Below, piece after piece: positions 11,311-41,371 of a stretch of DNA of 64,000 nt (position 1 is its first letter; each line of letters opens with the position of its first letter). Made by a program: the position numbers and the translations under genes. The notes below the pieces were generated by a model. It was not told the DNA's origin. It worked only from the letters and a program-made list of their open reading frames with translations, and searched no databases. The DNA comes from Leptotrichia sp. oral taxon 212 (GTDB lineage: Bacteria > Fusobacteriota > Fusobacteriia > Fusobacteriales > Leptotrichiaceae), in assembly GCF_001274535.1 (NCBI RefSeq), contig NZ_CP012410.1:1337126-1401125 (forward strand), given 5' to 3'.

Positions 11311-11333
11311 AAAAAATAGCCGTTAAGCTATTT
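11311..11333 (-). terminator. Second small terminator-like hairpin in the 11152-11384 gap
   Basis: AAATAGC (11314-11320) pairs with GCTATTT (11327-11333). On the minus strand it is followed by TTTTATATG. It could back up the terminator at 11355-11387. The rest of this gap is the rtcB leader with a TATAAT at 11218-11223. Confidence 0.5.
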
Positions 11334-11354
11334 GTAATTTAATGTCTACTCCCT

Positions 11355-11387
11355 AAAAAAAATCACAGTAAACCTATACTGTGATTA
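11355..11387 (-). terminator. Terminator overlapping the stop codon of the DUF2335 gene
   Basis: AATCACAGT (11361-11369) pairs perfectly with ACTGTGATT (11378-11386). On the minus strand it is followed by TTTTTTT. The stem includes bases of the TAA stop at 11385-11387. Confidence 0.85.
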
Positions 11388-11834: not shown

Positions 11835-12012
11835 AATTGCTTATTGCTCCTTTTATAGCTATTCCGACAGTATCCCAGCTATGTTGCAATGCTTCTTTCA
11901 CTGTTTTTTCATGAGCTGTAGGGTATTTTTTGAAAATATTGTCCACATTTACTGCTGAAGTACTGTTAAAAATACTTGCAGTTCCACGGACTATAGTATT
12001 TAACTTTTTCAT
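11809..12012 (-). CDS. Small hypothetical protein overlapping the DUF2335 gene
   Basis: A 67-residue ORF with a strong ribosome site (AGGAGAGGG, 3-9 nt upstream). The product is mildly basic and has ALQHSWDTVGIAIKGAISNYGKE near its C-terminus, which could form an amphipathic helix; no signal peptide or clear membrane span is seen. Not recognised. The 26-bp overlap with the downstream membrane-protein gene and the terminator right behind the pair make a two-gene unit, resembling the layout of small toxin-antitoxin or anti-phage pairs. Confidence 0.6.
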   Translation of the reverse strand: MKKLNTIVRGTASIFNSTSAVNVDNIFKKYPTAHEKTVKEALQHSWDTVGIAIKGAISNYGKENTYK

Positions 12013-25463: not shown

Positions 25464-25871
25464 TTATTTTTTTACTTCCTTCAGTTCAAATGCTCCAAAA
25501 TAAATCAAAATAGCAATTTCTATAATAGTTATTGAAATTGTTACAAAAGCTGTTTTTATGTTTTGCATAATAATTAACTGCGTCATAATAAAATGAACAA
25601 AAAACAAAGTTATCCAAATTTTATAATGAAGCGTTATTATATATTCCTGAGTTTCTGAATTTACATCTATAACTTTCTTTGGTGATTTTTCAAAAAAACT
25701 ATTGTATACTTGAATAGTCTGTTCACCGTAATCCATTGCAATTTCATTTTTCACATTAGGCATTATATCTTCTGTTCTTTCATCATTTATCTTCAGTTTA
25801 TAGATTTTTATATTCTTCCTTGCTACTCTGGATCTTAAAATATTTTTGGATTCTACAATAATTTTAGGCAT
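25464..25871 (-). CDS. Hypothetical membrane protein with two C-terminal spans
   Basis: Not recognised. The 135 residues form a basic and beta-like N-terminal half (about 1-75), then two hydrophobic segments (about 80-101 and 104-126) before a short charged tail. GAGGA lies before the ATG. It lies between the alkD-type gene (66 bp away) and yjjW; no functional link is visible. Confidence 0.5.
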   Translation of the reverse strand: MPKIIVESKNILRSRVARKNIKIYKLKINDERTEDIMPNVKNEIAMDYGEQTIQVYNSFFEKSPKKVIDVNSETQEYIITLHYKIWITLFFVHFIMTQLIIMQNIKTAFVTISITIIEIAILIYFGAFELKEVKK

Positions 25872-25898
25872 ATCATTCCTCTTTCTTAACTTAATATA

Positions 25899-26630
25899 TC
25901 ACACAATTACGACATCTTTCAATCCATTTTTCAATGCAATTCTTTTAAGTTTATTCATATAGGCATCATTTGGTGTATAAGCTTTCAGAACATCTTCCCT
26001 GACACCATTCTGACGAAATTTTATAATCTTGTATTTTATATTACTGTTACATTCTGCAATAAGCTTACTTATATTATCTACCATTTTTTCATTGTCAGTT
26101 ATTTCAGGCACAATTACTGTCCTTACTTCATAAACTTTATCCAGTACTGCTAAAAACCTGAAATTTTTAATGACAGTTTTATTTGTTGTTCCTGTTATGA
26201 GATTATGCTCCTCTTCAGTAAATCCTTTTATATCTATCATCATCTTATCAAAAATCTTAACAAATTCCCTTTTTTCTTCAGTCCAAAGTGGAAACGAACA
26301 GTTACTGTCTACAAAACATGTCATTTTTGGCCATTTCTCCTTTACTGCTGTAAAAAGCTCTGTCAGAAATCTCCATTGCAATGTACACTCTCCCCCTGAA
26401 ACAGTTATTCCTGATATGAAAGGAGCAACCTCTGTGATTTCATTCATAATCTCTTCTACAGTCATTGCAGTTACATCATCAGAACAGTTTCCTTCCTTCA
26501 TTATTTCTATTGTTTCAGGATTATGACAATACAGACAGTCAAAATTACATCCCTGAAAAAATATTGACAGCCTGTTACCCGGGCCGTCAACATTACTAAA
26601 GGGTATTATTTTGTTAACAATCCCTTTCAT
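25899..26630 (-). CDS. yjjW: YjjW-like glycyl-radical enzyme activase (radical SAM)
   Basis: Radical-SAM protein that installs the glycyl radical on the upstream YjjI. The 243-residue protein carries the CNFDCLYCHNPE cluster motif (C-x3-C-x2-C, residues about 28-35) preceded by FSNVDGPGNRLSIFFQG, and the SGGECTLQ SAM-contact motif. It differs from E. coli YjjW by being shorter, with no clear ferredoxin-like cluster insert. Its start overlaps the yjjI stop by one base (TAATG), indicating coupled translation. Confidence 0.85.
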   Translation of the reverse strand: MKGIVNKIIPFSNVDGPGNRLSIFFQGCNFDCLYCHNPETIEIMKEGNCSDDVTAMTVEEIMNEITEVAPFISGITVSGGECTLQWRFLTELFTAVKEKWPKMTCFVDSNCSFPLWTEEKREFVKIFDKMMIDIKGFTEEEHNLITGTTNKTVIKNFRFLAVLDKVYEVRTVIVPEITDNEKMVDNISKLIAECNSNIKYKIIKFRQNGVREDVLKAYTPNDAYMNKLKRIALKNGLKDVVIV

Positions 26631-28132
26631 TATTCATTTCCTCTTACTTTTCTTTCCAATATTTTTGAATTTTCCCTTGCTCCCAGTCCAAATACAACTG
26701 TCTGCTGTATAACCTGCTCATTTTTGTATAATTTTTCCATTTCAGATTTTTTTACAAGATATCCTGTAATTCTTATTACATCAGCATCTGTAGAATAAAC
26801 AGAGAAATATCTCATTCCTTCTTTAAATGCACCTTTTATAATATCAAGAATTGAAGCAGGATTCTTAGAAGCCATCTCATCAAATGGAAAAATATCTCCT
26901 ATTCCAGATTTGAAATAAGGGTGGAATTTAGCAGTCTGTTTTATATGCTTAGGTAAAGCAGGTTCATCTCCTATAGGAATTCTGCACCCCGGACTTATTC
27001 CTGTATCTGTATCTATTCCTACCTGAGCATGAAGTACATAGTGATTATCAGTTATTTCACAATATTCTGTCTTATAGCTATGCACTAAATTCTGTAATTT
27101 ATCGACAATTCTTACTCCTAGATCATCAGCATACTGATTCCATCCAAACTTGTCTTCTTTCTTTTCTGCACCTATTATTTTATTTACACATTCAGCAAGT
27201 CCTACTACTCCGAACATTCCACTAAATCTATCTCTATGTATAAGTCCTTCTTTTACAAGAAAACTTGTATCAAAGAACCCACTTTCTTCTACAAGAAACT
27301 TAACTCTTTTGTCCATATAGCTTGCCATTCTTTTTACTGCTTCAGGCAATGCATTGTTAAGCAAATCTTCCTCATCTTTTGCTTCATTTGCCAATTTTGC
27401 AAGGTTAAGTCTTACAAGTGTATAAGCTCCACCACCTATGCTAAGACCATTATAGCAGCTTGCTATTGCATAGTCTTTTCCATAAAAATCTTTTCTGAAC
27501 ATTTTATTATTTGCAAAACTAGGTTTAGCAACTTTTAGACTTGTTTCAATTGCCAATACTGCAAAATCATCCGGAGTTACTTCCTCATCATATTTCAATG
27601 TCAGGTTAGGAGTCATTGTATCAAGTTCAGCTGTAGCTCTCAGTATCATTTCTCCTGCCTTTGTCTTATGAGGCCCTAAATTTGCATGACAGAAAGAATC
27701 CGTAATAGTTCTGTCAATCTGAAGAAGGAACAGCTTGATAGCCTTGTATGCCTCTTCCTCATCTTTTATATAAGGTTCAAGTAGTGTATCAAGATTTCCA
27801 AGATACACCGGATATGTTGTTATGGAAGGTACATGATTGTATAATATAAGTAAATTAGTAGTAGCTTCCCATATGTCCTTTGCAGGTTTTATTTCAAGAA
27901 ATTTGCTTCCCTGTTTCATAAATACTTCATAGTCAGGAGTAATATACCTTGCCCTATATGGAGCATTTCCTTCAAACAAATCACATATTATGCCTTTATC
28001 TCTGTATTCCTGAATTTCAGGTGTAATTCCAAGAACATCAAGTGTAGCTTCAGCCGCTCCCGCCAGTGTTCTCAGCTTCTGTTCATAAGTCAGAACTCTA
28101 TTTTTAACGATAGATAAAATTTGATCCGACAT
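26630..28132 (-). CDS. yjjI: YjjI family glycyl-radical enzyme
   Basis: Glycyl-radical enzyme of unknown substrate. The 500-residue product has IRITGYLV near residue 460 as the glycine-radical motif (R-x-x-GY). Further features are DSFCHANLGPHKTKAGEM (near 142), SCYNGLSIGGGAYTLV (near 225) and a C-terminal VVFGLGARENSKILERKVR typical of YjjI. Partner activase yjjW is translationally coupled. Upstream AGAGGAGG is a strong ribosome site. Glycyl-radical chemistry implies anaerobic use. The function of YjjI is not settled. Confidence 0.88.
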   Translation of the reverse strand: MSDQILSIVKNRVLTYEQKLRTLAGAAEATLDVLGITPEIQEYRDKGIICDLFEGNAPYRARYITPDYEVFMKQGSKFLEIKPAKDIWEATTNLLILYNHVPSITTYPVYLGNLDTLLEPYIKDEEEAYKAIKLFLLQIDRTITDSFCHANLGPHKTKAGEMILRATAELDTMTPNLTLKYDEEVTPDDFAVLAIETSLKVAKPSFANNKMFRKDFYGKDYAIASCYNGLSIGGGAYTLVRLNLAKLANEAKDEEDLLNNALPEAVKRMASYMDKRVKFLVEESGFFDTSFLVKEGLIHRDRFSGMFGVVGLAECVNKIIGAEKKEDKFGWNQYADDLGVRIVDKLQNLVHSYKTEYCEITDNHYVLHAQVGIDTDTGISPGCRIPIGDEPALPKHIKQTAKFHPYFKSGIGDIFPFDEMASKNPASILDIIKGAFKEGMRYFSVYSTDADVIRITGYLVKKSEMEKLYKNEQVIQQTVVFGLGARENSKILERKVRGNE

Positions 28133-28302
28133 AAAAGTCCTCCTCTAAATAAATTCTTTTCATCTATTTTTTAACTACTTATTTTAAATGTGAATCTTTA
28201 AATCTTATAATTTTCCCTCTTTGTCTTTTTTCATACAAATATTGTACCACATTTTTTCTATAAATGGTAGAGAATTTTGAAAATATTAACTTAAATAAAT
28301 AA

Positions 28303-28407
28303 GAAACTGTCTCAGAAGAAAATCTAAGAAACAATGTGAAGAATTATATTTTAAATATAATATCCATCTGCTTTCTTTATATTTTCTTTATTTTGAGACA
28401 GCTTTTT
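28303..28407. terminator. Long hairpin between lacI and yjjI
   Basis: AAACTGTCTCAGAAGAAAAT (28303-28322) mirrors the sequence at 28381-28407, which ends TTTTGAGACAGCTTTTTT. The loop of about 60 nt is AT-rich. The plus-side end has a T run; the minus-side run is TTTCTTATTT, sufficient to end the lacI transcript. It shares the TGTCTC/GAGACA arm motif with the element at 4729-4938. Confidence 0.6.
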
Positions 28408-28413
28408 TAATTA

Positions 28414-29367
28414 TTAAAGGTTTATTTCAACTGTTGTATCTAAAATATCATTTTTCAGTAACGATTCCAGTATTTCTATACTTTTTTTAGCTAATTCTGA
28501 AAACGGTATATCATAAGACACTATTTTCTCATCAATAAATCTTATAATTTCGTTATCTTCAAAAGTTGCAATTTCCATACTTTCAGGATTTATGTTCAAT
28601 TCTTTTAAAGCTTTTAAAAATCCTAATGTCATTGAGTTATTAGAAATATATATGGCATTTATTTCTCTTTTCAAAATTTCTTTTCCTAAATTATAGCCAC
28701 TTTCTAATGTAAAATTTCCATAGAGTACTAGTTCTTTATCATATTTAATCCCATTATCTTTCAGAGCTTTTTTATAGCCGTCTAATCTTTCTTTTGCTGT
28801 ACTTATAGTTTGAGGTCCTGCTAAAAATCCTATTTTTTTCTTTCCATGTTTTATGAATTTTTCTATAACTCCATAAGATGAATAAAAATTTTCAAAAAAT
28901 ACTCCTGGCATCTGTTTGTCTATTTTTCTATCAATCAGTACTAATGGAATTTTTGAAGATATCTGATCAAAAAAATTAATTTTATCGTATGAATTTTGTG
29001 TTACAGCAATAATTATACCTTTAACTCTCTGTTCTATAAACAATTCTATATATTTTTTCTGTAATTTGAAATTTTCATTGGAACATCCTAAAATAATATT
29101 TAAATTTCTGTTATTTGCTTCATCAACTATTCCATCCATTATACTTGCAAAATATAAGTTTTTTATATCGGGAACTATAACTCCTATTGTATTATTCTCA
29201 TTTTTAGAAAGATTACGTGCAATTATGTTAGGATAGTAGTTATTTTCCTTTATAATCTGATTTATTCTTTCTTTTGTTTCTTCTTTTACATTGTTATTAT
29301 TATTTATTACCCTTGAGACAGTTGCAACAGAAACATTTGCCAGTCTCGCTATATCCTGTATTCTCAT
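28414..29367 (-). CDS. LacI family transcriptional regulator
   Basis: The 317-residue repressor has a typical N-terminal helix-turn-helix (IQDIARLANVSVATVSRVIN, residues 3-22) and hinge, followed by a periplasmic-binding-like ligand domain (IGVIVPDIKNLYFASIMDGI near 62). It is the last gene of the nucleoside cluster, downstream of the PF07090 gene, and is the obvious candidate to bind the two ATGTAA-N4-TTACAT operators upstream of rbsK and the BMP gene. The ligand could be ribose, a nucleoside or a breakdown product. Confidence 0.93.
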   Translation of the reverse strand: MRIQDIARLANVSVATVSRVINNNNNVKEETKERINQIIKENNYYPNIIARNLSKNENNTIGVIVPDIKNLYFASIMDGIVDEANNRNLNIILGCSNENFKLQKKYIELFIEQRVKGIIIAVTQNSYDKINFFDQISSKIPLVLIDRKIDKQMPGVFFENFYSSYGVIEKFIKHGKKKIGFLAGPQTISTAKERLDGYKKALKDNGIKYDKELVLYGNFTLESGYNLGKEILKREINAIYISNNSMTLGFLKALKELNINPESMEIATFEDNEIIRFIDEKIVSYDIPFSELAKKSIEILESLLKNDILDTTVEINL

Positions 29368-29433
29368 AATACCACCGTTTCAGTTTTATTTCATATTATT
29401 TTATATTTTAACGGTGTGTTTGTCAACTTTTAT

Positions 29434-30177
29434 TTATGAAGTAAGCCATTTTATAATATTTTGCCATAACTTATCATAATATTTCCATTCTACAAATTCT
29501 TTTGACCCCCAGTGAGGTGCACAGTCAGAAGTAAAAGCAACGCTTTTTCCTTTTCCAAACTTTCCTGCTGCTATAAATGGATCTTCATCTATAAGAGCTA
29601 TTACTTCTCCTTTTGTATTATCAGAAAGAGTTTTATTATATCCTAGGAAGAAAGGAAATTCACCTTCTATGCCTTCAAATATTTCATGTTTTGCTACAAT
29701 TTTTGGTACAATTCCTTCAGGTCTTTCAACCCTATCGTCATATTTTAATAAGTCCACAGGCAGAATATCCCTTACTTCTGTTTCTCCATATCTTGTCTTA
29801 GCATCAATCCCGGTAAAAGACATATATCCGCCTATCATACAGAAACCTCCGCCGTTTTCTACATATTCCTTTATCAGTTTACATCTGTTAGGTGTTTTTT
29901 CACTTCTTGAAAAAGTTGCTGAAGGTAGCAATAAAGTATTTGAACCTATATCTGACAATATTACAACATCATATTCTGAAATTTCTTCTTTAGTTTTTGG
30001 AAATTTTTCACTCGCATGATGATTCGGAATGAAAGTTACCTGATGATTTGCTTTTTCAAGAGCTTCCTTTAACCATTTCACTCCTTCTTCATAAACACTG
30101 GTAGTAAATGTATCAAATCCTTTTATATGTATTGTATGACTTGTCCATGATTCTCCCGCTATCAATATTTTTGACAT
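29434..30177 (-). CDS. Glutamine-amidotransferase-like protein (PF07090)
   Basis: The 247-residue protein has the class I glutamine amidotransferase-like fold of PF07090 (cytoplasmic, function unknown): KILIAGESWTSHTIHIKGFD at the start, YDVVILSDIGSNTLLLP near 70, ENGGGFCMIGGYMSF near 109 with the Cys in the nucleophile elbow position, and FTSDCAPHWGS near 222. A His follows in the triad position. The role in the nucleoside cluster is not clear; it lies 17 bp from the M20 hydrolase gene and is clearly part of that operon. Confidence 0.75.
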   Translation of the reverse strand: MSKILIAGESWTSHTIHIKGFDTFTTSVYEEGVKWLKEALEKANHQVTFIPNHHASEKFPKTKEEISEYDVVILSDIGSNTLLLPSATFSRSEKTPNRCKLIKEYVENGGGFCMIGGYMSFTGIDAKTRYGETEVRDILPVDLLKYDDRVERPEGIVPKIVAKHEIFEGIEGEFPFFLGYNKTLSDNTKGEVIALIDEDPFIAAGKFGKGKSVAFTSDCAPHWGSKEFVEWKYYDKLWQNIIKWLTS

Positions 30178-30194
30178 ATTTCCCTCCTATTTTC

Positions 30195-31454
30195 TTATTT
30201 GAAATTCAATATAATATTGGCATAATTAATTATATATTTGTAATATTCATTAATATCCAGTTTTTCATCTATTGTATGACAATCTTTTAAAAGTCCCGGA
30301 CCTAATATTACAGTCGGTATTTTTGATATGTTTGAAAAAATTCTTGCATCGTTTCCTGCTGTTCCACCTGCAATATCAATATTATTGTCAATTAATGCAC
30401 AAGTGTCCTTTATATATTTGACAAATTTATCTTCCTGATTTATTTCAAAACCGTTTCCCATCTGATATATTTCCAGTTCAGGAAGATTATGTCTCATAAA
30501 TTCATCTCCCTGTGCCCTTTCAAAGATTTTCTCTTCAAATTCTTTTTTTACCTGGCTGTACGACATTTCACCTGGGATATAATGTATACATAAATCAAAT
30601 TCACAGTAATCAGGAACTGTAGAACCTGCATCTCCTCCTTTTATAACTCCTACATTTATTGTAGGAGGCGGAAGTAAAGAATGCTTGTATTTCATAAGCC
30701 ATGTTTTCTCAAGCTCATTAATGGATTCTATAAGTTTAATCGCTTTTTCAATTGCATTTATCCCTTTCCATTTTTCAGCTGAATGTAATGCAATACCTCT
30801 TACTTTTACTTTAAAAAAGACAAATCCCATATGGGCAACTAAAATTTTATTATCTGACGGTTCGCATACAATTACTCCGTCTCCATAAACATTTTTGTTC
30901 ATTGCTGTGACGATACTTCCATTTCCTCCACCCTCTTCATCTGCCACGGAGTTTATCACTACATTACATGGTAATTCAACATTTGAATCTTTAAGGAGTT
31001 TTATAGCCATAATTGCTGCCATCAATCCCCCTTTCATATCAGTTGTACCCCGTCCGTAGATATATTTTTCATTAATTTCTCCAAAAGGATTGTATTTCCA
31101 GTCTTCTTTATTTCCAATTGGCATTGTATCCACATGACCATTAAATACCAATGTTTTATCACTTTTTCCCTTAAATTCAGCTATAAGGTTGTATCTGTCA
31201 TTATTATTATGCCCTAAATTTCCCTCATTGTATTCTTCCAATGCTTTTTTCAAAACATCATCATCTAGATATTCTTTTCTAATTTTGAAAACACCTAATT
31301 CATTAAATAAATTTTCCAGAAAAATTTGTCCATTTTTTTCGTTTCCACCTTTTATTCCATGACCAATTGTCTGAGTATCTATTTCAATGAATTTTTTTAA
31401 ATAGTCTAAATATTCAGATTTTTTGTTTTCAAATATATTTAGTAATTCATTCAA
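30195..31454 (-). CDS. M20 family metallohydrolase (ArgE/DapE-type)
   Basis: Zinc-dependent amide hydrolase. The 419-residue protein has the family metal ligands: VFNGHVDTMP (His, Asp) near residue 105, GRGTTDMKGG near 136, NSVADEEGGG (Glu-Glu pair) near 165 and VCEPSDN near 200. Substrate unknown; members act on N-acyl amino acids, dipeptides or carbamoyl compounds. It lies in the nucleoside operon, just upstream of the PF07090 gene and 12 bp after a nucleoside hydrolase, so a nucleobase- or ureide-derived amide is an option. Confidence 0.88.
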   Translation of the reverse strand: MNELLNIFENKKSEYLDYLKKFIEIDTQTIGHGIKGGNEKNGQIFLENLFNELGVFKIRKEYLDDDVLKKALEEYNEGNLGHNNNDRYNLIAEFKGKSDKTLVFNGHVDTMPIGNKEDWKYNPFGEINEKYIYGRGTTDMKGGLMAAIMAIKLLKDSNVELPCNVVINSVADEEGGGNGSIVTAMNKNVYGDGVIVCEPSDNKILVAHMGFVFFKVKVRGIALHSAEKWKGINAIEKAIKLIESINELEKTWLMKYKHSLLPPPTINVGVIKGGDAGSTVPDYCEFDLCIHYIPGEMSYSQVKKEFEEKIFERAQGDEFMRHNLPELEIYQMGNGFEINQEDKFVKYIKDTCALIDNNIDIAGGTAGNDARIFSNISKIPTVILGPGLLKDCHTIDEKLDINEYYKYIINYANIILNFK

Positions 31455-31466
31455 TTATATCACTTC

Positions 31467-32408
31467 CTAAATGTGATTATCGTATAATTTTAAATTCTCG
31501 TAAACAAGATTCCAGAACTTGTCAAAATCAAGTTTTACTGCCACATCGACATTAGGTTCTTTTTTAAGTATTCCAAAATAATCACATAATGTTCTACCAT
31601 ATGATCTTTCACTCCAAAGTTCGATTTCACAAAACATAGGTTTTACTTCTATGCATTCAGGATCAATTATATAGGCAATAGTAGTAGGGTCGTGAACAGG
31701 AGGAGCACTCCACCCATATACATTTTTTTGAGAAGCTGCAAAAAACTCCATTAAGTCTACAAACAGTTTTGATGCTTTGTTGTTCAGTGATTTTATTTTT
31801 TCCACTACTTCCTTAGTTGCCGAAGCCTGTCTCGTCAGATCAAGTCCCATCATTACAATCTTTACTCCAGAACTGAATACAATATGTGCCGCATCAGGAT
31901 CCGCAAGAATGTTAAATTCTGCTGCAGGAGTCATATTTCCTAACTGATATGAACCTCCCATTAATACTATTCTATTAATTTTTTCTATTATTCTAGGCTC
32001 AAATCTTATTGCCATTCCTATATTAGTTAAAGGTCCTGTGGGAACAAGTGTTACTTTTTCATCTGAATTCATTAACGTATCTATAATAAAGTTTACTGCG
32101 TGTTTATCTTCGGCTTTTATTTTTAATTCTTCAAATTTTGGACCATCTAATCCTGTTTCTCCATGAATATCATCCGCTATTAGCTGTTCTCTTATCATAG
32201 GTCTTGACATTCCCGAATAGACTGGAACATCTAAATTCAGATGATTACAGACTTTAAGGGCATTATTTACTGTCTTTTCAAGTTTCTGATTTCCTGCAAC
32301 AACTGTAATTCCTAACAATTCAATTTTTGGATTTATCGCAGCCAGCATTATTGCTACGGCATCATCATGTCCAGGATCACAATCCAGAATTATTTTTTCT
32401 TTTTGCAT
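31467..32408 (-). CDS. Inosine-uridine preferring nucleoside hydrolase (second copy)
   Basis: The 313-residue homologue of the protein at 23774-24712 carries the same DCDPGHDDAVAI Ca-binding N-terminus, VPTGPLTNIGMAI, and FNILADPDAA. It belongs to the operon with the ABC importer, only 17 bp downstream of the permease gene. Its role is to split imported nucleosides so that ribose can go to the ribokinase. The C-terminal part differs from copy one (YGWSAPPVHDPTTIAYI), so substrate preference may differ. Confidence 0.93.
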   Translation of the reverse strand: MQKEKIILDCDPGHDDAVAIMLAAINPKIELLGITVVAGNQKLEKTVNNALKVCNHLNLDVPVYSGMSRPMIREQLIADDIHGETGLDGPKFEELKIKAEDKHAVNFIIDTLMNSDEKVTLVPTGPLTNIGMAIRFEPRIIEKINRIVLMGGSYQLGNMTPAAEFNILADPDAAHIVFSSGVKIVMMGLDLTRQASATKEVVEKIKSLNNKASKLFVDLMEFFAASQKNVYGWSAPPVHDPTTIAYIIDPECIEVKPMFCEIELWSERSYGRTLCDYFGILKKEPNVDVAVKLDFDKFWNLVYENLKLYDNHI

Positions 32409-32425
32409 TTTCTATATTCCTCCTT

Positions 32426-33352
32426 CTATACTGCACTTCTTCTTTTCTTTATTTTTTTATACTGTCTTATCATCGAAACACTCAATATTGAAATCGTAAT
32501 AATATATGGCAGCATAAGTACAAATTGGGACGGAAAACCATGAGCCTGTAATCTTGCTCCTACTGAATCTGTAAATCCAAATATTAGACAACCGATAGTT
32601 GTAAAAATAGGATTGGCCGCACCGAAAAACATTGCAGCTACTCCCATAAATCCACGGCCATTTGTCATATTTTCAGTAAACAGATTTGAATATCCTAAGG
32701 ACAGATGAGCTCCTGCAAGTCCTCCTATTACTCCTGAGATCAGTATCACTTGAAATTTTCTTTTATATACATCTATTCCTGCAGTCTTCGCAGCTTCAGG
32801 ATTTAATCCTATACTTCTTGTTCTAAGTCCCCAGACAGTCTTATAGAGTAAGAACCATAGAAGTATTATTAAAGGTATGCTCAAAATTTCAAATAATGAA
32901 TAATCATTGAAAAGACTGTTCAATATTTTATTTCCTTCAAATATTTTTAAATGAATTTTTGGTATTGATACGTTATCTTTTAGTGTAAAACTTCCTGAAA
33001 CTCCCAGTAACTGCTGTAATAGAAATCTTGTCAATGCCAGTACTAACAGGTTAATAACAGTACCTACAGCAAATATATCTCCTTTATATTTTAAATGTGC
33101 TACTCCCATAATTGCCGCTATGATTACGCCTGCCACTACGGCGGCTATTACCGCCAGTATCCAGCTTCCAGTTATAAAGCACACATAAACTGCTATAAAT
33201 GCCCCCATCAGCATTATCCCTTCTACTCCGACATTCAATATATCAGCCTGTTGAGTTATAACAGCTGAAAAAGCAGCCAGAAGGATTGGTGTAGTTGCTC
33301 TGATAGTTGCATGAATAATTGTATAATCTACTATTGAAAAAATCTTATTCAT
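32426..33352 (-). CDS. Nucleoside ABC importer permease (second subunit)
   Basis: Inner-membrane permease of a BMP-type (branched-chain-permease superfamily) nucleoside importer. The 308 residues give about eight membrane spans, with the BPD_transp_2 hallmark LNVGVEGIMLMGAF near residue 37 and a conserved GLNPEAAKTAGID loop near 182 that contacts the ATPase. It pairs with the permease at 33355-34398. The two genes are nearly contiguous. Confidence 0.9.
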   Translation of the reverse strand: MNKIFSIVDYTIIHATIRATTPILLAAFSAVITQQADILNVGVEGIMLMGAFIAVYVCFITGSWILAVIAAVVAGVIIAAIMGVAHLKYKGDIFAVGTVINLLVLALTRFLLQQLLGVSGSFTLKDNVSIPKIHLKIFEGNKILNSLFNDYSLFEILSIPLIILLWFLLYKTVWGLRTRSIGLNPEAAKTAGIDVYKRKFQVILISGVIGGLAGAHLSLGYSNLFTENMTNGRGFMGVAAMFFGAANPIFTTIGCLIFGFTDSVGARLQAHGFPSQFVLMLPYIITISILSVSMIRQYKKIKKRRSAV

Positions 33353-33354
33353 TA

Positions 33355-34398
33355 CTACACCTCTTTTCCTTTTTTAATTTTTTTTCTGATTTCAAACAGT
33401 TTTTCCATCGTTACTAATAAAATGAATACTGCAATAATTATATCTATAAGAGATTTTGGAATACCTGTATGTCTTTCCAATCCTAATGAACCTGATTTCA
33501 AAGCTGCAATGAATAAACTTAAAAACGGTAACGCTACTACGCTTCCTTTAGCAATTAATGCCGCCAACATACCATCAAATGCAATATTTGAAGAAAAATT
33601 ATCCAAAAACACACCATAAATACCCATAACTTCTATAGCTCCTGTCAATCCTCCTATTGCACCACTCAACATCATTCCTGTTACCATTATTTTTTTTGAT
33701 TTTATTCCTACATATTCTGAGAAATGTGGATTCATTCCTGTAGAACGGATTTCAAATCCTAATTTTGTTTTTTTAAACAGGTAATACACTAAAATACATA
33801 CTGCTATTGCTATAAATATACCTGCATTGGCTCTGCTCGGTTTCAATATTTTCATAAGTACCGCACTTTTTTCAATAGGTTTAGTCTGAGAAATTCCAGT
33901 TTTTCCTGATAAAGGACCACTTACAAGATATGAAGTTATATATATTGCTACATAGTTCATCAGAATTGTTACACATACTTCATTTACATTATAGAAAGCT
34001 TTCAAAAAGCCGGGGATGAATGCCCATAATGCTCCTATAATCATTGCCACCAAAAAACATACCAATATATGAAGTAAAGATGGCATTCCTTTTAATGTAT
34101 ATCCTACATATGCCGCAGCTATGGCACCTAAGTAAAGTTCTCCTTCCACACCTACATTGAAAACACCGACACGTGATGACACAATAAAAGCCAGACCTGT
34201 CAGTAGCAGAGGGACAAACTTTTCAATTGTTGTTCCAAGATTAAAGTTCCCTATAAAAGCACTTTTAAATAACTGCGCATATACTTCAAAAGGATTTTCT
34301 CCCATAAACGCCATAACTATTCCACTCAATACAATGCAGACTATTATAGAAAATAAGACACTTAGATATTTACTGTTCATTATCTTTTTATATAACAT
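33355..34398 (-). CDS. Nucleoside ABC importer permease (first subunit)
   Basis: The 347-residue partner of the above, with the same superfamily marks FNVGVEGELYLGA near residue 80 and a RSTGMNPHFSEYVGI coupling loop near 218. About eight to nine spans. Its gene overlaps the ATPase gene by 11 bp, so both are made together. A longer cytoplasmic C-terminus (RKKIKKGKEV) is basic. Confidence 0.9.
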   Translation of the reverse strand: MLYKKIMNSKYLSVLFSIIVCIVLSGIVMAFMGENPFEVYAQLFKSAFIGNFNLGTTIEKFVPLLLTGLAFIVSSRVGVFNVGVEGELYLGAIAAAYVGYTLKGMPSLLHILVCFLVAMIIGALWAFIPGFLKAFYNVNEVCVTILMNYVAIYITSYLVSGPLSGKTGISQTKPIEKSAVLMKILKPSRANAGIFIAIAVCILVYYLFKKTKLGFEIRSTGMNPHFSEYVGIKSKKIMVTGMMLSGAIGGLTGAIEVMGIYGVFLDNFSSNIAFDGMLAALIAKGSVVALPFLSLFIAALKSGSLGLERHTGIPKSLIDIIIAVFILLVTMEKLFEIRKKIKKGKEV

Positions 34399-35911
34399 CT
34401 TTTTCTTTACCTCCGGTCATTAAAAATCCTACATTTTCTTCATTTGCATTTTTTGAATCCAAGTCTCCTACTATTTTCCCTTCGTACATTACGAGAATTC
34501 TATCTGACAATGTCAATATTTCTTCCAATTCTGCAGAAATAAGTAAAACACCTTTATTTTTATCCCTATATTCAACTATATTTTTTCTTATAGTTTCTAT
34601 GGAACCTATATCTATTCCTCTTGTAGGCTGAGACGCAATCAGCAAATCAGTATCACTCTCTAATTCTCTTGCAACTACTATCTTCTGGGCATTTCCTCCA
34701 GAAAGGTTTTTAGTTGTAATATTAAAGTTTGAAGGTCTGATATCAAATTTCTTTATTATATTCTCACAAAATTTATTTATTTCTTTTTCTTTTAAATTAA
34801 TCACACCTGAAAAAGCATTATCTGAAAATTTTGTAGCTATTAAGTTTTCCTTTATATTCATTTCCCTATTCAGACCCCTTTTATTTCTGTCATCAGGAAT
34901 ATGTGCAATACCGGTTTCTCTTACAAATTTAGGTGTCTTATTTGCTATTTGTGTATCTTTGAAGTATATTTTTCCTTTTTGAACTTCCCGTAATCCCGTT
35001 ATTGCCTCCACAAGTTCTTTCTGTCCGTTTCCATCAACTCCTGCTATTCCCAATATCTCGCCTCTTTTTAGTGAAAAGGACAATCCTCTTATTTTTGATA
35101 ATTCTCTGTCACTTGGAACATAAATATCTTCTACTTTTAAAATAATCTCTTCGGTTTCCATTTTTTTCTTCTTCACTTCCAGCAATACTTCTCTTCCTAC
35201 CATCATTTTTGCCAGTTTTGTTGGTGAAGTATCTTCCTTGAGTACAGTATCAATATATTTACTATCCCTCATTACTGTAATTCTGTCACTGATTTTCATT
35301 ACTTCATTCAGTTTATGGGATATAAAAATAATTGATTTCCCGGATTTTTTCAAATTGTCTAGAATTTCAAACAGTTTTTCAGTTTCCTGAGGTGTCAGAA
35401 CAGCTGTAGGCTCATCCAAAATAAGTATATCCGCGCCTCTATACAAAGTTTTTATTATTTCCACCCTTTGAGCTTCTCCAACTGATATATCCTTTATTTT
35501 TTTATTTATCTGAATATCCAGATCGTATTTTTTTACATATTCCAGGACTTTTGACTTAGCTTCATTAAAATCAACCATGGCAATCGAATGTTTCGGTTCA
35601 AAACCAAGAATTATATTTTCGAGAACTGTCATTTCATTTACTAGCATAAATTCCTGATGGACCATACCTATTCCGAGAGTTATTGCTTCTTTTGTAGTAT
35701 AATCTTTCATTTTTTTATCATATATTTCTATATCTCCACCATCAATAGGATATATACCATACAATATTTTCATCATTGTAGATTTTCCTGCACCGTTTTC
35801 ACCAATTAATGAATGAATTTCTCCTTCAAATAAATTAAAATTTCCATTTTTTATTGCCTGAACTTCTCCAAAAGTTTTCACAATATTTGTCATCTTAATT
35901 ATTTCTTTCAA
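34388..35911 (-). CDS. Nucleoside ABC importer ATP-binding protein (tandem ABC domains)
   Basis: The 507-residue protein has two ABC cassettes. The first has Walker A GENGAGKST near residue 38, signature VGEAQRVEI and Walker B ILILDEPTA. The second has a degenerate Walker A-like VDGNGQKEL near residue 290 and the signature LSGGNAQKI. This asymmetry is normal for sugar/nucleoside-type ATPases such as RbsA and BmpB-type (YufO). It powers the two permeases downstream and lies between them and the BMP lipoprotein. Confidence 0.92.
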   Translation of the reverse strand: MKEIIKMTNIVKTFGEVQAIKNGNFNLFEGEIHSLIGENGAGKSTMMKILYGIYPIDGGDIEIYDKKMKDYTTKEAITLGIGMVHQEFMLVNEMTVLENIILGFEPKHSIAMVDFNEAKSKVLEYVKKYDLDIQINKKIKDISVGEAQRVEIIKTLYRGADILILDEPTAVLTPQETEKLFEILDNLKKSGKSIIFISHKLNEVMKISDRITVMRDSKYIDTVLKEDTSPTKLAKMMVGREVLLEVKKKKMETEEIILKVEDIYVPSDRELSKIRGLSFSLKRGEILGIAGVDGNGQKELVEAITGLREVQKGKIYFKDTQIANKTPKFVRETGIAHIPDDRNKRGLNREMNIKENLIATKFSDNAFSGVINLKEKEINKFCENIIKKFDIRPSNFNITTKNLSGGNAQKIVVARELESDTDLLIASQPTRGIDIGSIETIRKNIVEYRDKNKGVLLISAELEEILTLSDRILVMYEGKIVGDLDSKNANEENVGFLMTGGKEKDVI

Positions 35912-35934
35912 AATAATTCCTCCTATTTTAGAAC

Positions 35935-36999
35935 TTATTCAACTTTAAATCCTGGATAAGACTCTACTTTTATTTCTCCTTTTTTTATTTTTTCAGTTAA
36001 TTCATTAATTTTTGCCAATATATCTTCAGGAAATTTATCTTTTAAAGCAGTCTTCATTGCGGCCATATCTGTCAGACCTACTCCACCATTACTTGCATCC
36101 ATTCTTACAATTTCTCCGCCTTTAAAATTACCTTCATGAACCTGTTTTATCATATTATATGTAGCAACATCAACTCTTTTCAACATAGAAGTAAGAATAA
36201 ATCCAGGATATATATCATCTTGATTTATATCAACTCCTATTGCATATTTTTTACTGTCCTTAGCCGCTTCCAATATTCCATTACCTGTATTTGAAGCTAC
36301 GTTCATTACAATGTCCGCTCCTTGGCTATATTGAGCAAGAGTCAGTTCTTTTCCTTTTAACGGATCGTTGAAAGTTCCTGCAAATGATACCAATACTTTT
36401 GTCTGTGGATCAATGTAAGCTGCACCCTGTTTGTATCCAGTCAGAAAATCCTGTAAAACAGGTATGTCCATTCCTCCAACCCATCCTATTATTTTTTCTC
36501 CATTAACATTAGGAATGTTTGTTTTTTGAGTAAATAATGCCGCTGCCGCACCTGCTAAAAAGGATCCTTCATTCTGAGCAAATATAGCTGAAGAAACATT
36601 AGGTTTTTTAACTACACTGTCTATAATTCCTATTTTTACGTTCTTAAATTCATCTGCATGATTGTTTACTATATCAGTAAACTGTGATGAAATTGCCAAA
36701 ACCAAATCATAACTGTCATCTGAAGCAGCTGAAACAAAGTTAGTTTCCCAATCTGATGGAACTTTAGATTCAAGAACTTTAAATTCTATTCCAAAATCCT
36801 GTTGCGCCTTTTTTAAACCTTCATAAGCAGAATCGTTAAATGATTTATCACCTAAAAAACCTGAAAATACTACTGCAACTTTTAGTTTTTTCTTAGTGTT
36901 TCCTCCTTCATTGCTACTTTTATCATCTTTTTTATTTCCACAAGATACTAGCATTAATCCAATTAATAATAATAACGTTATTTTTAAAATCTTTTTCAT
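35935..36999 (-). CDS. BMP family nucleoside-binding lipoprotein
   Basis: Substrate-binding lipoprotein of the nucleoside importer (Bmp/PnrA-like). The signal peptide has a lipobox LVSCG with C20. The mature 334 residues hold the BMP features VVFSGFLGDKSFNDSAYEGLK near residue 40 and YAIGVDINQDD near 250. The start is the ATG at 36999 because GGAGG lies 8 nt upstream; the longer frame to 37047 lacks a ribosome site and adds a non-signal stretch. Promoter-like TTGAGA-N17-TATAAT precedes it, behind the operator at 37068-37083. Confidence 0.9.
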   Translation of the reverse strand: MKKILKITLLLLIGLMLVSCGNKKDDKSSNEGGNTKKKLKVAVVFSGFLGDKSFNDSAYEGLKKAQQDFGIEFKVLESKVPSDWETNFVSAASDDSYDLVLAISSQFTDIVNNHADEFKNVKIGIIDSVVKKPNVSSAIFAQNEGSFLAGAAAALFTQKTNIPNVNGEKIIGWVGGMDIPVLQDFLTGYKQGAAYIDPQTKVLVSFAGTFNDPLKGKELTLAQYSQGADIVMNVASNTGNGILEAAKDSKKYAIGVDINQDDIYPGFILTSMLKRVDVATYNMIKQVHEGNFKGGEIVRMDASNGGVGLTDMAAMKTALKDKFPEDILAKINELTEKIKKGEIKVESYPGFKVE

Positions 37000-37067
37000 T
37001 TTATTTACCTCCAAATTATAGATATTATATATGAAAGTCTCAATCAAGTATTATTATTCTGTTTTTT

Positions 37068-37083
37068 ATGTAATCGCTTACAT
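37068..37083. promoter_or_regulatory. LacI-type operator upstream of the BMP gene
   Basis: ATGTAATCGCTTACAT, an inverted repeat of ATGTAA-N4-TTACAT with central CG, one mismatch in the mirror. It lies between rbsK and the BMP gene, upstream of the BMP promoter. It matches the operator at 38061-38076 in 15 of 16 bases. Confidence 0.85.
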
Positions 37084-37107
37084 TTTTTTGAAAAAATTTA
37101 AATTCTT

Positions 37108-38025
37108 CTAATTTTTCTTAATAAATTCTTCTATTTCATCTTTTGTAGGAATTGAACTCTGTGCACCCTGCCTTGTAACAACTATTGCTGAAACTGCTGT
37201 TGCATATTTTATTGCTTCGCCTGTATCTCCACATTCACATATTTTCATGGCAAATGCTCCAATAAAGGAATCTCCTGCCGCAGTTGTATCTATTGCTTTT
37301 ACCTTATATGCTTCATACTTATTGACATCATTATTTTTATCAAAATATACACAACCTTTTTCACCTAATGTAAGAATAATATTTTTTATTCCATTTTCTT
37401 CTTTTTTACAAAGCATTTTTTCAGTATATCCTTCATTAAAAATTTTTATTTCAAATATCTCTTCCATTTCAGTTTCATTAAGTATTAAATAATCTGTGTT
37501 ATGAAAAATTCTATCATTTAATTTTGTTGCAGGAGCTGGATTAAATACTGTAATTTTACCAAGTTCCTTAGCTTTCAGAAGACAAAATTCAACTACAGAA
37601 AGAGGAATTTCATTTTGTAAAATTACTATGTCATTCTCTGCTATTGCATCTATTTTATTCAGAATATCTTTTTCTGTAATTTTGAAATTACTTCCTGCGA
37701 TAACAATGATATTATTATCACCATTTTTATCTACTGTTATTATCGCTCTTCCCGTTAATTCATCACTTTTAATAACATTATCAGCTTTAACTCCATTATC
37801 AACTAAGTTTTGAATCAACTTTTCTCCTTGGATGTCCTTTCCTACCATTCCTATCATTTCTGTTTTCATTCCAAGTTTAGCTACTGCAACAGCTTGATTT
37901 GCACCTTTTCCTCCACAACTTTCATAAAATTCATTTCCAAAAATTGTTTCACCTAATTTGGGTAATTTTTCCACCTTTACAGTCATATCCATGTTCAAAC
38001 TTCCTATTACAAGTGCTTTTTTCAT
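37108..38025 (-). CDS. rbsK: Ribokinase
   Basis: Phosphorylates ribose to ribose 5-phosphate. The 305-residue PfkB-type sugar kinase starts GSLNMDMTVKVEKLPKLGET (residues 8-27). It has FYESCGGKGANQAVAVAKLG near 33 and the catalytic-base motif DTTAAGDSFIGAF near 246 (the Asp is general base). It is the first gene of the cluster and starts just after an operator and promoter, and it feeds on ribose released by the nucleoside hydrolases. Confidence 0.93.
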   Translation of the reverse strand: MKKALVIGSLNMDMTVKVEKLPKLGETIFGNEFYESCGGKGANQAVAVAKLGMKTEMIGMVGKDIQGEKLIQNLVDNGVKADNVIKSDELTGRAIITVDKNGDNNIIVIAGSNFKITEKDILNKIDAIAENDIVILQNEIPLSVVEFCLLKAKELGKITVFNPAPATKLNDRIFHNTDYLILNETEMEEIFEIKIFNEGYTEKMLCKKEENGIKNIILTLGEKGCVYFDKNNDVNKYEAYKVKAIDTTAAGDSFIGAFAMKICECGDTGEAIKYATAVSAIVVTRQGAQSSIPTKDEIEEFIKKN

Positions 38026-38060
38026 TTTATCACCTCCTATTATATAATTTAACTTTCAAA

Positions 38061-38076
38061 ATGTAACCGCTTACAT
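38061..38076. promoter_or_regulatory. LacI-type operator upstream of rbsK
   Basis: ATGTAACCGCTTACAT, same inverted-repeat core as at 37068-37083. It lies about 16 bp downstream of the rbsK -10 hexamer and 36 bp before the start codon, the standard repressor position. A weaker half-site CGTTTTACAT lies at 38149-38158. Confidence 0.88.
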
Positions 38077-38091
38077 AACTTTCTTAGTATG

Positions 38092-38119
38092 AGTATACCT
38101 TGTTTTTTTCTAAAATCAA
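38092..38119 (-). promoter_or_regulatory. rbsK promoter
   Basis: On the minus strand TTGATT (38114-38119), 16 bp, TATACT (38092-38097). The operator at 38061-38076 falls directly downstream, so bound repressor would block initiation. Confidence 0.7.
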
Positions 38120-38241
38120 GAGTAAAAATACAAAATAAATTTAGAAACCGTTTTACATATAGATAAAATATAGCATTTCAATATTTAAATTATTATTTTC
38201 TCAATTTCTTTGATTAAAAATAGATTTAATTTCCTCACAAA

Positions 38242-38289
38242 TAAAAATACAGGAAAATATATTCTATATCACAAATATACTTTTCCTGT
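38242..38289 (-). terminator. Terminator of the efflux operon
   Basis: ACAGGAAAA (38249-38257) pairs perfectly with TTTTCCTGT (38281-38289). On the minus strand it is followed by ATTTTTATTT. It lies 24 bp past the permease stop. Confidence 0.8.
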
Positions 38290-38312
38290 AATTTTATATA
38301 AATATTTAATTT

Positions 38313-39524
38313 TTAATCCACCCTCAATGCCTCCATAGGCTCCAGAGCCGCAGCTTTTTTCGCTGGATAAACTCCGAACACAAGCCCAATCATTGTTGAA
38401 ACGAAAATACATACAAATACAACAACAGGACTCAGAATAGGTGCCGCACCTACAAAAATTCCTATAAGAAGTGCCAATAAATATCCTATTACCGCTCCAA
38501 TTATACCTCCAAAAAATGTAAGAATTATCGCTTCAATTAAAAATTGTACAAGAATATGTATTGTTTTTGCTCCTATTGCCTTACGGAGACCAACCTCCCT
38601 AATTCTTTCAGTAACACTTACAAGCATTATATTCATAACTCCTATTCCACCTACAAAAAGGGAAATAGCGGCAACTCCGCTTATAAACAGTGATAACATA
38701 TTCAAAATATTATTGAATTCATCAAGTCCTTGGCTTGTAGAAGATACATTATAAATATCAGGGTCACTTCCTCTTGTTTTAAAAGACTGCTTAACCACTT
38801 CCATTACCCTGTTCATATCATTAGCATCTGTTGCTTTTACCTGTAATGCAGTATATTTATCCTGTTCATTACCATTTATATGGTTAAGATAATTATTCGG
38901 CAAAAGTCCCATTCCAGGCATACCTTCAGTTCCACCACCCAGACTTGCATATGGATTTTTATAAACTCCAACAACAGTAACAGTCTGACTATTTTTTCTG
39001 AAATTTAAAGTAAGTTTTTTTCCTATCGGATTTTCTCCAGGATATAGTTCTTCTGCCGTTATATGATCTATCATTACATATTTTCCATCTTTTCTGTATT
39101 CACTGGGTAAAAATTTTCTTCCTTTCAGTACCGTATAATCTGATATTTTAAAATAGTCCTCTGTCACTCCTGTTCCTTGAAACATTTTTGTATTATCATT
39201 TACACTTATTCTGGCAAAGGTGCTTGAGGTAGGAGTAACTGCCTCAACTCCTTCGATACTTTTTATTTTTTCTATATCTTTTGATGTAAGCAGATCATCT
39301 GTTTTATAAGTCTGCCCAGGCGAAGTATCAATTGATATTTCAAAATTTGACACTCCAAGTTTATTCAAATCACCCGTAATATTTTCCTTAATTCCTGCAC
39401 CAAGAGAGGACATCAGTATAACTGCGGCTATTCCAATTATTATTCCTAACATTGTCAGGAAAGAACGTACTTTATAGCTGAACAGATTTGATACGGATAA
39501 TTTTAACAGTTCAAAAAAATCCAT
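38313..39524 (-). CDS. MacB-like ABC transporter permease (FtsX-type)
   Basis: The 403-residue MacB-type permease has an N-terminal span at about 17-42 (FLTMLGIIIGIAAVILMSSLGAG), a large periplasmic domain (about 50-275) and three C-terminal spans (about 279-306, 325-355, 362-388). It has the family NIMLVSVTERIREVGLRKAIGA coupling stretch near 297. It ends the tolC-macA-macB ATPase operon. Here ATPase and permease are separate genes, in contrast to fused MacB. Its ATG directly follows the ATPase stop. Confidence 0.9.
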   Translation of the reverse strand: MDFFELLKLSVSNLFSYKVRSFLTMLGIIIGIAAVILMSSLGAGIKENITGDLNKLGVSNFEISIDTSPGQTYKTDDLLTSKDIEKIKSIEGVEAVTPTSSTFARISVNDNTKMFQGTGVTEDYFKISDYTVLKGRKFLPSEYRKDGKYVMIDHITAEELYPGENPIGKKLTLNFRKNSQTVTVVGVYKNPYASLGGGTEGMPGMGLLPNNYLNHINGNEQDKYTALQVKATDANDMNRVMEVVKQSFKTRGSDPDIYNVSSTSQGLDEFNNILNMLSLFISGVAAISLFVGGIGVMNIMLVSVTERIREVGLRKAIGAKTIHILVQFLIEAIILTFFGGIIGAVIGYLLALLIGIFVGAAPILSPVVVFVCIFVSTMIGLVFGVYPAKKAAALEPMEALRVD

Positions 39525-40217
39525 TTATACTCCCCTCCGATTATATACAATTTCATCTTTTTCTATTACACCATCTTTTAATCTTATTATTCTTTTACAA
39601 TGTTCCGCTACATCTTCTTCATGGGTAACCATTACTATCGTTGTTCCATTATCATTTAACTTTTTAAATATTTCCAGAACCTCTTCTCCTGATTTTGAAT
39701 CCAAATTTCCTGTAGGCTCATCTGCTAAAAGAATTCTAGGATTGTTTATTATTGCCCTCGCTATTGCTACCCTCTGTCTCTGACCTCCTGACATTTCACT
39801 GGGTTTATGATGTATTCTTTCTCCAAGTCCAACGCTTTCAAGTGCTTCTATTGCCCTCTTTACCCTTTCATTCTTTTTCACTCCAGCATAAAGTGCCGGA
39901 AGAGCTACATTTTCAACTGCGGTCATTTTAGGAAGAAGATTAAATGTCTGAAAGACAAATCCTATTTTCTTATTTCTAACTTCAGCAAGTGCATCTCCTT
40001 TTATGGTTGATACATCCTGGTTATCAAGAATATACTTTCCTGATGTCAGGCTATCCAGACATCCCAGAATATTCATAAGAGTGGACTTCCCACTTCCTGA
40101 AGGTCCCATAAATGCAACATATTCTCCTTCCTTCACAGAAAGATTAAGCCCTTTTAATACGGTCAGTTCCAAATGTCCTGTTTTATATGTTTTTACTATA
40201 TCGCTTACGTCTATCAT
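39525..40217 (-). CDS. MacB/LolD-type ABC ATPase
   Basis: The 230-residue ATPase has Walker A GPSGSGKST near residue 38, the Q-loop FVFQTFNLLP, signature MSGGQRQRVA near 142, Walker B ILLADEPTGNLDS near 161 and H-loop VTHEED. The pattern is the macrolide-exporter/LolD subfamily. Stop codon and next ATG are adjacent, so translation with the permease is coupled. Confidence 0.92.
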   Translation of the reverse strand: MIDVSDIVKTYKTGHLELTVLKGLNLSVKEGEYVAFMGPSGSGKSTLMNILGCLDSLTSGKYILDNQDVSTIKGDALAEVRNKKIGFVFQTFNLLPKMTAVENVALPALYAGVKKNERVKRAIEALESVGLGERIHHKPSEMSGGQRQRVAIARAIINNPRILLADEPTGNLDSKSGEEVLEIFKKLNDNGTTIVMVTHEEDVAEHCKRIIRLKDGVIEKDEIVYNRRGV

Positions 40218-40252
40218 AAAGATTTACCTCTAATTCATATAATTCGTGTTTC

Positions 40253-41371
40253 CTACATTGGCGGTCCTCCGGGACCTCCTCCTTTACCTTTTTTCTTATT
40301 ACTTTTAACATTAGCATTATTACCATTACTTTTTGAAGAATCCATTATTTTTATTTTTTCACCATCTTTTAGGGCTTCATCAATTACTGAAATTATTCTG
40401 TCTCCTTCTGACAGTCCTGATGTAACTTCATAATATGAATCATCATTTGTTCCAATCTGTACTTCCTTTTTAGTCACTTTACTGCTATTATCCACTGTAA
40501 ATACATAAAATTTACCATTTTCATTCATAACTGCACTATAAGGAACTTTTATTACATTTCTACTTTCCTTGTAAAAAATTACTGCATTGATTGTAGCTCC
40601 AGGCCTTAAGTTCTTGGCATCATTGAATTTTATCGTAACTGCCGTATTACTTTCATCAAGGCTCGAACTTTTTGTAGCAACCCCTGATATCTCAGTAACC
40701 TCTCCCTCAACCTTTTCTCCATTAGGTAATGAATCTGATGTTATTTCTACCCTCTGTCCTACTGCAACATTTTTTATCTGGGAGTCTGAAAGGCTCACTT
40801 CCACCTTCATATTTTTTGTATCAGATACTTTAAAAAGTGTAGTCTCAGTATTTACTTTATAGTTTTCATCTGCTGTCATTTCAGTAATTACACCGTCAAC
40901 TGGACTTACTATCTGATCCTTTATTAAAGATAAATCTTCCTGTAATGTAGACAGCTCCAGTTTGGAAGTTTCTAAAGCAATTCTTGCATCATCAACAGAT
41001 ACTTTCGAAGCTCCTCCAACCTTAAAAAGTTCGCTTGCATTTCTCAAATCTCTTCTTTTCTGTTCAACTTCAAGTGATTTTATCTGTATTTTTCTTAAAG
41101 TTTCATTTTTATCCACAGGATAGAATGTAACAACTACATCACCTTTTTTTACATTATCACCTTTTTTGAAAAATACTTTCTGTACTCTCTGACTTGAAGT
41201 CGTATAAACTGAAATTTCATTATCTGAAACAACCTGTCCCGTTTTCTCAGTAGAAAGTGATATGTCTCCCCTTTCCACCTTCACAACCTCATATTCCTTG
41301 ACTTCTGTCTTTTTACCGCATGAAAGCAGAAAAACCAGAAACAGGGATAAGAATAATATTCCTTTTTTCAT
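40253..41371 (-). CDS. MacA-like periplasmic adaptor (membrane-fusion) lipoprotein
   Basis: The adaptor of 372 residues has a lipobox LLSCG with C18, then the HlyD/RND-type barrel-sandwich pattern VKKGDVVVTFYPVDKNE near 75, a coiled-coil hairpin (about 90-145), the second lipoyl half (SPVDGVITEMTADENYKV) and a beta-barrel and membrane-proximal domain. It ends in a short Gly/Pro tail (GKGGGPGGPPM). The start is set at the ATG at 41371, with AAAGGAG 6 nt upstream; the preceding ATG overlaps the upstream TolC stop codon and precedes that site. It links the MacB pair to the TolC-like channel. Confidence 0.9.
   Translation of the reverse strand: MKKGILFLSLFLVFLLSCGKKTEVKEYEVVKVERGDISLSTEKTGQVVSDNEISVYTTSSQRVQKVFFKKGDNVKKGDVVVTFYPVDKNETLRKIQIKSLEVEQKRRDLRNASELFKVGGASKVSVDDARIALETSKLELSTLQEDLSLIKDQIVSPVDGVITEMTADENYKVNTETTLFKVSDTKNMKVEVSLSDSQIKNVAVGQRVEITSDSLPNGEKVEGEVTEISGVATKSSSLDESNTAVTIKFNDAKNLRPGATINAVIFYKESRNVIKVPYSAVMNENGKFYVFTVDNSSKVTKKEVQIGTNDDSYYEVTSGLSEGDRIISVIDEALKDGEKIKIMDSSKSNGNNANVKSNKKKGKGGGPGGPPM

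Follow-up and report, generated by a model that had tools for sequence, protein, structure and literature searches.

The nine minus-strand genes at positions 28414-38025 of the window (the whole stretch of 64,000 nucleotides analysed here, from the single-contig, 2,444,904-base genome of Leptotrichia sp. oral taxon 212) point to an unusual, probably amide-containing food molecule. They are tentatively explained, with a likelihood that we place a little below even, as an operon under LacI control that breaks down a non-standard riboside bearing an amide or acyl group on its non-sugar part. This reading is preferred because of the shared distribution and adjacency of two genes, coding for an M20 metallohydrolase (subfamily named M20a here) and a PF07090 protein, the importer clade that accompanies them, the gene content of one relative (G069), the changes in the importer pocket, and the ribose kinase RikA, whose gene adjoins a PF07090 gene in Salmonella. 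Whereas gene content, operon arrangement, operators and the tie of M20a and PF07090 to this importer clade are read directly from sequence, every enzymatic step and the substrate are predicted from them. Specifically, the BMP/ABC importer would take up the compound, the RihB-like hydrolase would split its N-glycosidic bond to yield ribose and an aglycone, and the ribokinase would channel ribose into the pentose phosphate pathway. The bond cleaved by M20a would be an amide or acyl one in the aglycone, or in the whole riboside if M20a acts before the hydrolase. The PF07090 protein, whose amidotransferase-type fold resembles that of sugar enzymes and has no catalytic cysteine, may act on ribose or on the aglycone. 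With neither the compound nor ribose present, LacI would keep the two transcription units repressed.

The first-pass annotation had described a same-strand set of nine genes of the uptake-hydrolysis-phosphorylation type, and the Pfam and NCBIfam scores place all the named families there. In the direction of transcription, and all on the minus strand, these are a PfkB-family ribokinase (RK, 37108..38025; PF00294; TIGR02152, 331.3 bits against a cut-off of 299.65), a BMP/PnrA-type substrate-binding lipoprotein (35935..36999, ATG start at 36999; PF02608, 226.5 bits against 24.1), a duplicated importer ABC ATPase (34388..35911, with two PF00005 stretches), permeases 1 (33355..34398) and 2 (32426..33352), both PF02653, a RihB-like nucleoside hydrolase (31467..32408; PF01156, 343.5 bits), M20a (30195..31454, TTG start; TIGR01910, 256.2 bits against a subfamily cut-off of 217.6), the PF07090 protein with a GATase1-like fold without the catalytic cysteine (29434..30177; 355.1 bits against 27), and a LacI-family repressor (28414..29367; PF00356 and PF00532). 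To our knowledge, neither the M20 hydrolase nor PF07090 has a place in nucleoside use. The ribokinase and BMP genes are 108 bp apart and PF07090 and lacI 66 bp, while from BMP to PF07090 the gaps range from -11 to 23 bp (BMP-ABC 23, ABC-permease 1 an overlap of 11, permease 1-permease 2 2, permease 2-hydrolase 17, hydrolase-M20 12, M20-PF07090 17). The scan of positions 26000-41000 returned three terminator-like sites against a shuffled mean of 4.6, one of them within the BMP coding sequence; the junctions joining hydrolase, M20 and PF07090 are free of them. The operon membership of the latter two is thus supported by their position, 12 and 17 bp behind their upstream neighbours. Neither outcome named earlier as refuting was seen, as judged from gene positions for separate transcription and from genome profiles for a lack of co-occurrence. 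No Rfam family reached its gathering score in 25800-39500, and no relatives were confirmed in viral contigs.

The two matched operators, said to lie 993 bp apart, were both located. The operator 14-mer TGTAANCGNTTACA has only two exact sites in the genome, both in the nucleoside cluster and 993 bp from start to start. Only exact matches are distinctive, because three more sites appear at one mismatch and a reversed control pattern alone gives eight at up to one mismatch. Operator 1 (ATGTAACCGCTTACAT, 38061..38076) lies downstream of a probable ribokinase promoter (TTGATT-16-TATACT, 38092..38119, minus strand) and is conserved in four genomes; in their alignment the promoter is kept, with a -35 box varying in its fourth base and a -10 box in its fifth, and the operator follows just downstream. 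Operator 2 (ATGTAATCGCTTACAT, 37068..37083), which has counterparts in G069 and G085, lies upstream of the -35 box of its own probable promoter, that of the BMP operon (TTGAGA-17-TATAAT, 37015..37043, minus strand; matched in position by TTGAAA-17-TATAAT in G069), and simple blockage therefore does not account for it. The pair flanks the ribokinase gene in the window and in three relatives (G085, G086, G069), at spacings of 993 (window), 1003, 1032 and 979 bp and helical phases of 0.57, 0.52, 0.29 and 0.24, so that neither spacing nor phase is conserved; a 1-kb loop between the operators is possible, without special support. A separate lacI promoter may exist at 29398..29426 (TTGACA-17-TAAAAT, minus strand), judged by its match to the consensus. 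The Sebaldella-type locus L012 differs in that its two operator-like sites are weaker, are separated by 47 bp and lie close to lacI rather than around ribokinase. That the LacI protein acts globally, in the manner of CcpA, is disfavoured, as the exact operator is found only at this cluster.

The profiling proposed for the M20 and PF07090 genes with BMP importers bore out their co-occurrence. PF07090 exceeds its family cut-off in 7 of 98 Fusobacteriota genomes, M20a occurs in the same seven (the window's and six relatives) and the two genes are adjacent in each; an eighth genome has a weak PF07090 match and a partial, much weaker M20 match of 115.5 bits. Such an overlap would have a probability of 7e-11 were the genomes independent, yet the seven represent three genera only. 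Among 391 Clostridia genomes, M20a is present in four, PF07090 in eight and both in three, always adjacent; the fourth M20a genome (G282) carries M20a twice, together with a ribose-type importer and without PF07090. A wider sample consists of the 80 top-scoring PF07090 loci out of at least 548 relatives, which biases it to proteins near the window's. Some loci duplicate genomes of the genome search (L023/L009, L024/L011, L026/L014, L167/L025, L168/L124), and loci L015-L022, from E. coli and plasmids, enter a 92-locus tally but not the counts of 80. That M20 and PF07090 are chance neighbours unrelated to the riboside could be argued from the few genera involved and from the persistence of operon gene order within one family. 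The same order behind BMP and nucleoside-hydrolase genes, however, is found in Clostridia, a Desulforamulus and a Synergistota genome, the pair occurs in two importer contexts, and M20a lies just upstream of PF07090 in 11 of 11 loci of the nucleoside-hydrolase type (within the 80 top-scoring of at least 548), which makes chance highly improbable.

The sequence comparisons moreover tie M20a and PF07090 to one importer clade. In a BMP tree of 72 leaves, the BMPs of these clusters form a single clade with a support of 0.995 (15 leaves plus short loci of two genes already included, from 14 distinct genomes), and every gene cluster of the clade carries M20 and PF07090. BMPs above 350 bits to that of the window occur in 14 of 95 loci, all with an M20 of at least 334 bits and a hydrolase of at least 364, the next BMP scoring 207. 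Most of these 95 loci were chosen for PF07090, and the reverse test was hence done in the 391 Clostridia genomes, where BMPs of 472 and 532 bits occur in only two genomes. Each of these has the complete cluster, and elsewhere scores do not exceed 272. Within the clade, F36, D238 and K260, whose numbering and nucleoside-contact role we take from PnrA, are kept, while one pocket position is S or T in 17 of 17 members where 29 of 30 generic BMPs have F, Y or W. The lack of this aromatic residue suggests a ligand with a different or larger base part and, together with M20a, favours a modified riboside. In G069, the ribokinase (94%), hydrolase (87%), LacI (90%) and both operators are retained and the four importer genes, M20 and PF07090 are all absent; these absences are also compatible with the simple loss of two gene blocks, which counts against the preferred reading.

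Concerning M20a itself, H107, D109, D139, E173, E174, E198 and H393, which we take to be the expected catalytic and metal-ligand sites, are invariant in five aligned sequences. The protein exceeds the subfamily cut-off of the ArgE/DapE deacylases (TIGR01910), a type that acts on N-acyl amino acids, and falls well below every equivalog cut-off among the 25 families listed, including acetylornithine deacetylase (TIGR01892, 147.2 against 297.7 bits) and succinyl-DAP desuccinylase (TIGR01246, 100.3 against 361.8 bits). In five of six genomes behind PF07090 loci there is one M20a-level match (405-583 bits) with all other M20s at 191 bits or less, and the sixth (G099) has only lower-scoring M20s; by these scores M20a seems to form its own subfamily. 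Across the 80 top-scoring PF07090 loci (out of at least 548), M20a (18), FmdA (14) and an amidohydrolase and/or creatininase (18) never overlap; of the rest, 23 lack all five labels and seven have only M20b, a broader M20 group tallied apart (seven loci alone, 14 with both). As these hydrolases are unrelated and mutually exclusive, they suggest a recurrent need for C-N bond cleavage at PF07090 loci. The grouping also tracks taxonomy. The amide-bearing compound proposed at first thus gains some backing from the exclusive C-N hydrolases and loses it on the side of the amidohydrolases, since the single protein scanned under that label (AmdH) resembles deaminases and gives weak support for amide chemistry.

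Alternatively, the core of M20a, PF07090 and kinase may degrade a ribosyl-amino acid or ribosyl-peptide conjugate, with the hydrolase cutting an N-ribosyl bond other than that to a nucleobase. The deacylase type of M20a would suit such a substrate, as would the seven of 18 M20a loci (within the 80 top-scoring of at least 548) in which the same core accompanies a ribose-type importer without a nucleoside hydrolase. Some loci of this kind include BtpA (L061, L085, L101) or an M28 peptidase (L061), and an M24 peptidase lies beside M20a in L122, a locus without PF07090. The remaining 11 of the 18, however, have a nucleoside hydrolase and, except for one cut contig, a BMP importer, and we regard the conjugate as an unlikely substrate. 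The presence of M20a with ribose-type importers, its single occurrence without PF07090 in G282 and the 62 of 80 PF07090 loci (the top-scoring of at least 548) without M20a are likewise observations against the non-standard riboside.

As for PF07090, the amidotransferase-like chemistry first attributed to it did not hold. Among the residues invariant in 43 relatives are E9, K19, D76, D147, D148, R149, E151, D218 and H222, and no cysteine is conserved at the nucleophile elbow, placed by sequence rather than coordinates: C113 is cysteine in only 6 of 43, and the sole cysteine-rich column, C219 (37 of 43; F in L012-L014), sits elsewhere, before the APHW motif. A working amidotransferase is rejected on this ground. 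The AlphaFold model of the window's protein (pLDDT 94) best matches the Salmonella structures 2gk3 (Z 34.6) and 3soz (Z 33.6), solved in 2006 and 2011, then 3rht (27.6). After these three uncharacterised relatives come the ThuA-like 1t0b (18.5), an IFT52 domain (16.8), a second ThuA-like protein and domains of GH42 galactosidases (near 16), and lower still true glutaminases such as Pdx2 (2nv0, Z 14.0, 2.7 A over 170 residues). Overall, the modelled fold matches that of the class I glutamine amidotransferases, though more weakly than it matches ThuA and GH42 domains. No function for PF07090 itself was found in the open-access literature.

Within 8 kb of PF07090, 65 of the best 80 loci of at least 548 have a PfkB kinase, a nucleoside hydrolase, or a BMP or ribose-type binding protein; the other 15, of which a few lie on short stretches, lack all of these. 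PfkB alone is that near in 24 of the 80, against 40 of 92 in a looser clustering. A nearness control on the same 80 loci (genes per Mb within 5 kb against 5-10 kb of PF07090) gives 50.3/8.5 for nucleoside hydrolase, 23.8/1.7 for M20a, 32.1/20.3 for PfkB, 54.5/44.0 for LacI and 15.4/38.9 for BMP. LacI and BMP show no clear excess, BMP being likely shifted beyond 5 kb by the intervening importer genes. Other neighbours are D-allose genes (L021), L-fucose isomerase with an FGGY kinase (L130) and PRPP synthetase (L083, L084), and the thread common to the loci, as judged from gene content, is sugar, mostly ribose.

Ordinary salvage of uridine, cytidine and related nucleosides is possible but rather doubtful; PF07090 would then aid with ribose, for instance as an enzyme of its ring form or of sugar handling in another way, and M20a would deacylate or hydrolyse some minor by-product or a peptide imported alongside. 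The window's hydrolase aligns with RihB (1q8f) at 376.8 bits over residues 1-309 without gaps and keeps H82, Q227, Y231 and H239, presumably the RihB-type active-site residues, although it falls below the RihB equivalog NF007417 (423 against 459 bits). Since this pyrimidine-nucleoside active site is kept, the ribosyl bond cut is probably one to a ring nitrogen. The ordinary active site, in one of only two nucleoside hydrolases of the genome, makes ordinary nucleosides plausible substrates and counts against a non-standard riboside. At other loci PF07090 neighbours plain nucleoside genes: of the 80 top-scoring loci (out of at least 548), 13 have cytidine deaminase and nine adenine deaminase within 5 kb, and L028 carries DeoD and a guanine-deaminase-like protein. 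Furthermore, McCormick et al. 2026 (PMC13432705) showed the Salmonella PfkB kinase RikA, whose gene adjoins the PF07090 gene STM3548, to be a ribose kinase, and they report having found no study of STM3548 function. Salvage of ordinary nucleosides is harder to reconcile with an importer clade specific to M20a/PF07090 clusters with altered pocket positions, and with the simpler BMP-NH-NH-RK-LacI cluster (NH, nucleoside hydrolase) that does without both genes in the same family (L163).

The linkage ties the PF07090 family to ribosides and, by naming one importer clade and one M20 partner, makes the substrate searchable by ligand screening of a single protein. A bolder version of the non-standard riboside, which we hold to be improbable, is a dedicated and horizontally spread pathway for modified nucleosides bearing acyl groups or amino acids, for instance from tRNA turnover, in which a specialised BMP importer, the hydrolase and M20 deacylation would be joined by PF07090 as a new riboside enzyme. 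Modified nucleosides as food, if true, would surprise most specialists.

Compared with known systems, the window's importer belongs by its PF02608 score to the family of BMP/PnrA nucleoside ABC importers (2fqw, 6y9u, 7x0r), with the same gene set, 7x0r and 2fqw (PnrA) being the closest solved structures to its BMP. It differs from them in its separate clade, in the S/T replacing the generic aromatic residue and in further clade-specific changes, and its nucleoside binding is predicted. The hydrolase shares the active-site residues of E. coli RihB and, unlike it, lies under the equivalog cut-off and is encoded in an importer operon. M20a has all the metal ligands expected of ArgE/DapE deacylases and differs by its tie to PF07090. 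PF07090 has a fold in common with ThuA-like proteins (1t0b, 4jqs, 4e5v), 1t0b aligning at 2.9 A over 203 residues with 15% identity, and the two are presumably separate Pfam families; a common fold says nothing on PF07090 function. Lastly, the Salmonella rikA-STM3548-STM3549-STM3550 locus (McCormick et al. 2026, PMC13432705) likewise places a PfkB kinase, one active on ribose, beside a PF07090 protein. In the Proteus relative the kinase reading frame opens with what is presumably a DeoR-like domain, and the Salmonella locus has a DMT transporter and a phosphotriesterase in place of the BMP importer, the nucleoside hydrolase and M20a.

A PF07090 protein (GATase1-like fold without the catalytic cysteine) is also encoded in rows of consecutive genes for a nucleoside hydrolase, PF07090, an alpha/beta hydrolase, and an FmdA-like amidase at loci L042, L049, L052, L070, L073, and L096, hosted by Anaerolineales and other bacteria. 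A second context of PF07090 with M20a, the M20 metallohydrolase subfamily of the operon, is present at loci L085, L101, and L061, where the two are accompanied by genes for a ribose-type importer, a BtpA/SgcQ protein, and a sugar kinase, and the nucleoside hydrolase is absent. At locus L122 (8563-9870; genome G282), a group II intron-type reverse transcriptase gene lies near an M20a gene. Locus L160 of the related genome G069 (8849-11876) codes for ribokinase, nucleoside hydrolase, and LacI and retains both LacI operators, while the importer, M20, and PF07090 are absent from both sides of the nucleoside hydrolase.

In the window, a second nucleoside hydrolase gene (23774-24712, minus strand) lies about 7 kb downstream of the operon's nucleoside hydrolase gene on the same strand; the two products are 53% identical, and the genome contains no further nucleoside hydrolase. 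Immediately downstream of lacI, the minus strand carries the genes of a YjjI glycyl radical enzyme and its YjjW activase (25899-28132), assigned through profile matches of the window proteins (TIGR04040, 804 bits, for YjjI; 269 bits for YjjW). In E. coli, yjjI and yjjW lie in the neighbourhood of the deo nucleoside genes.
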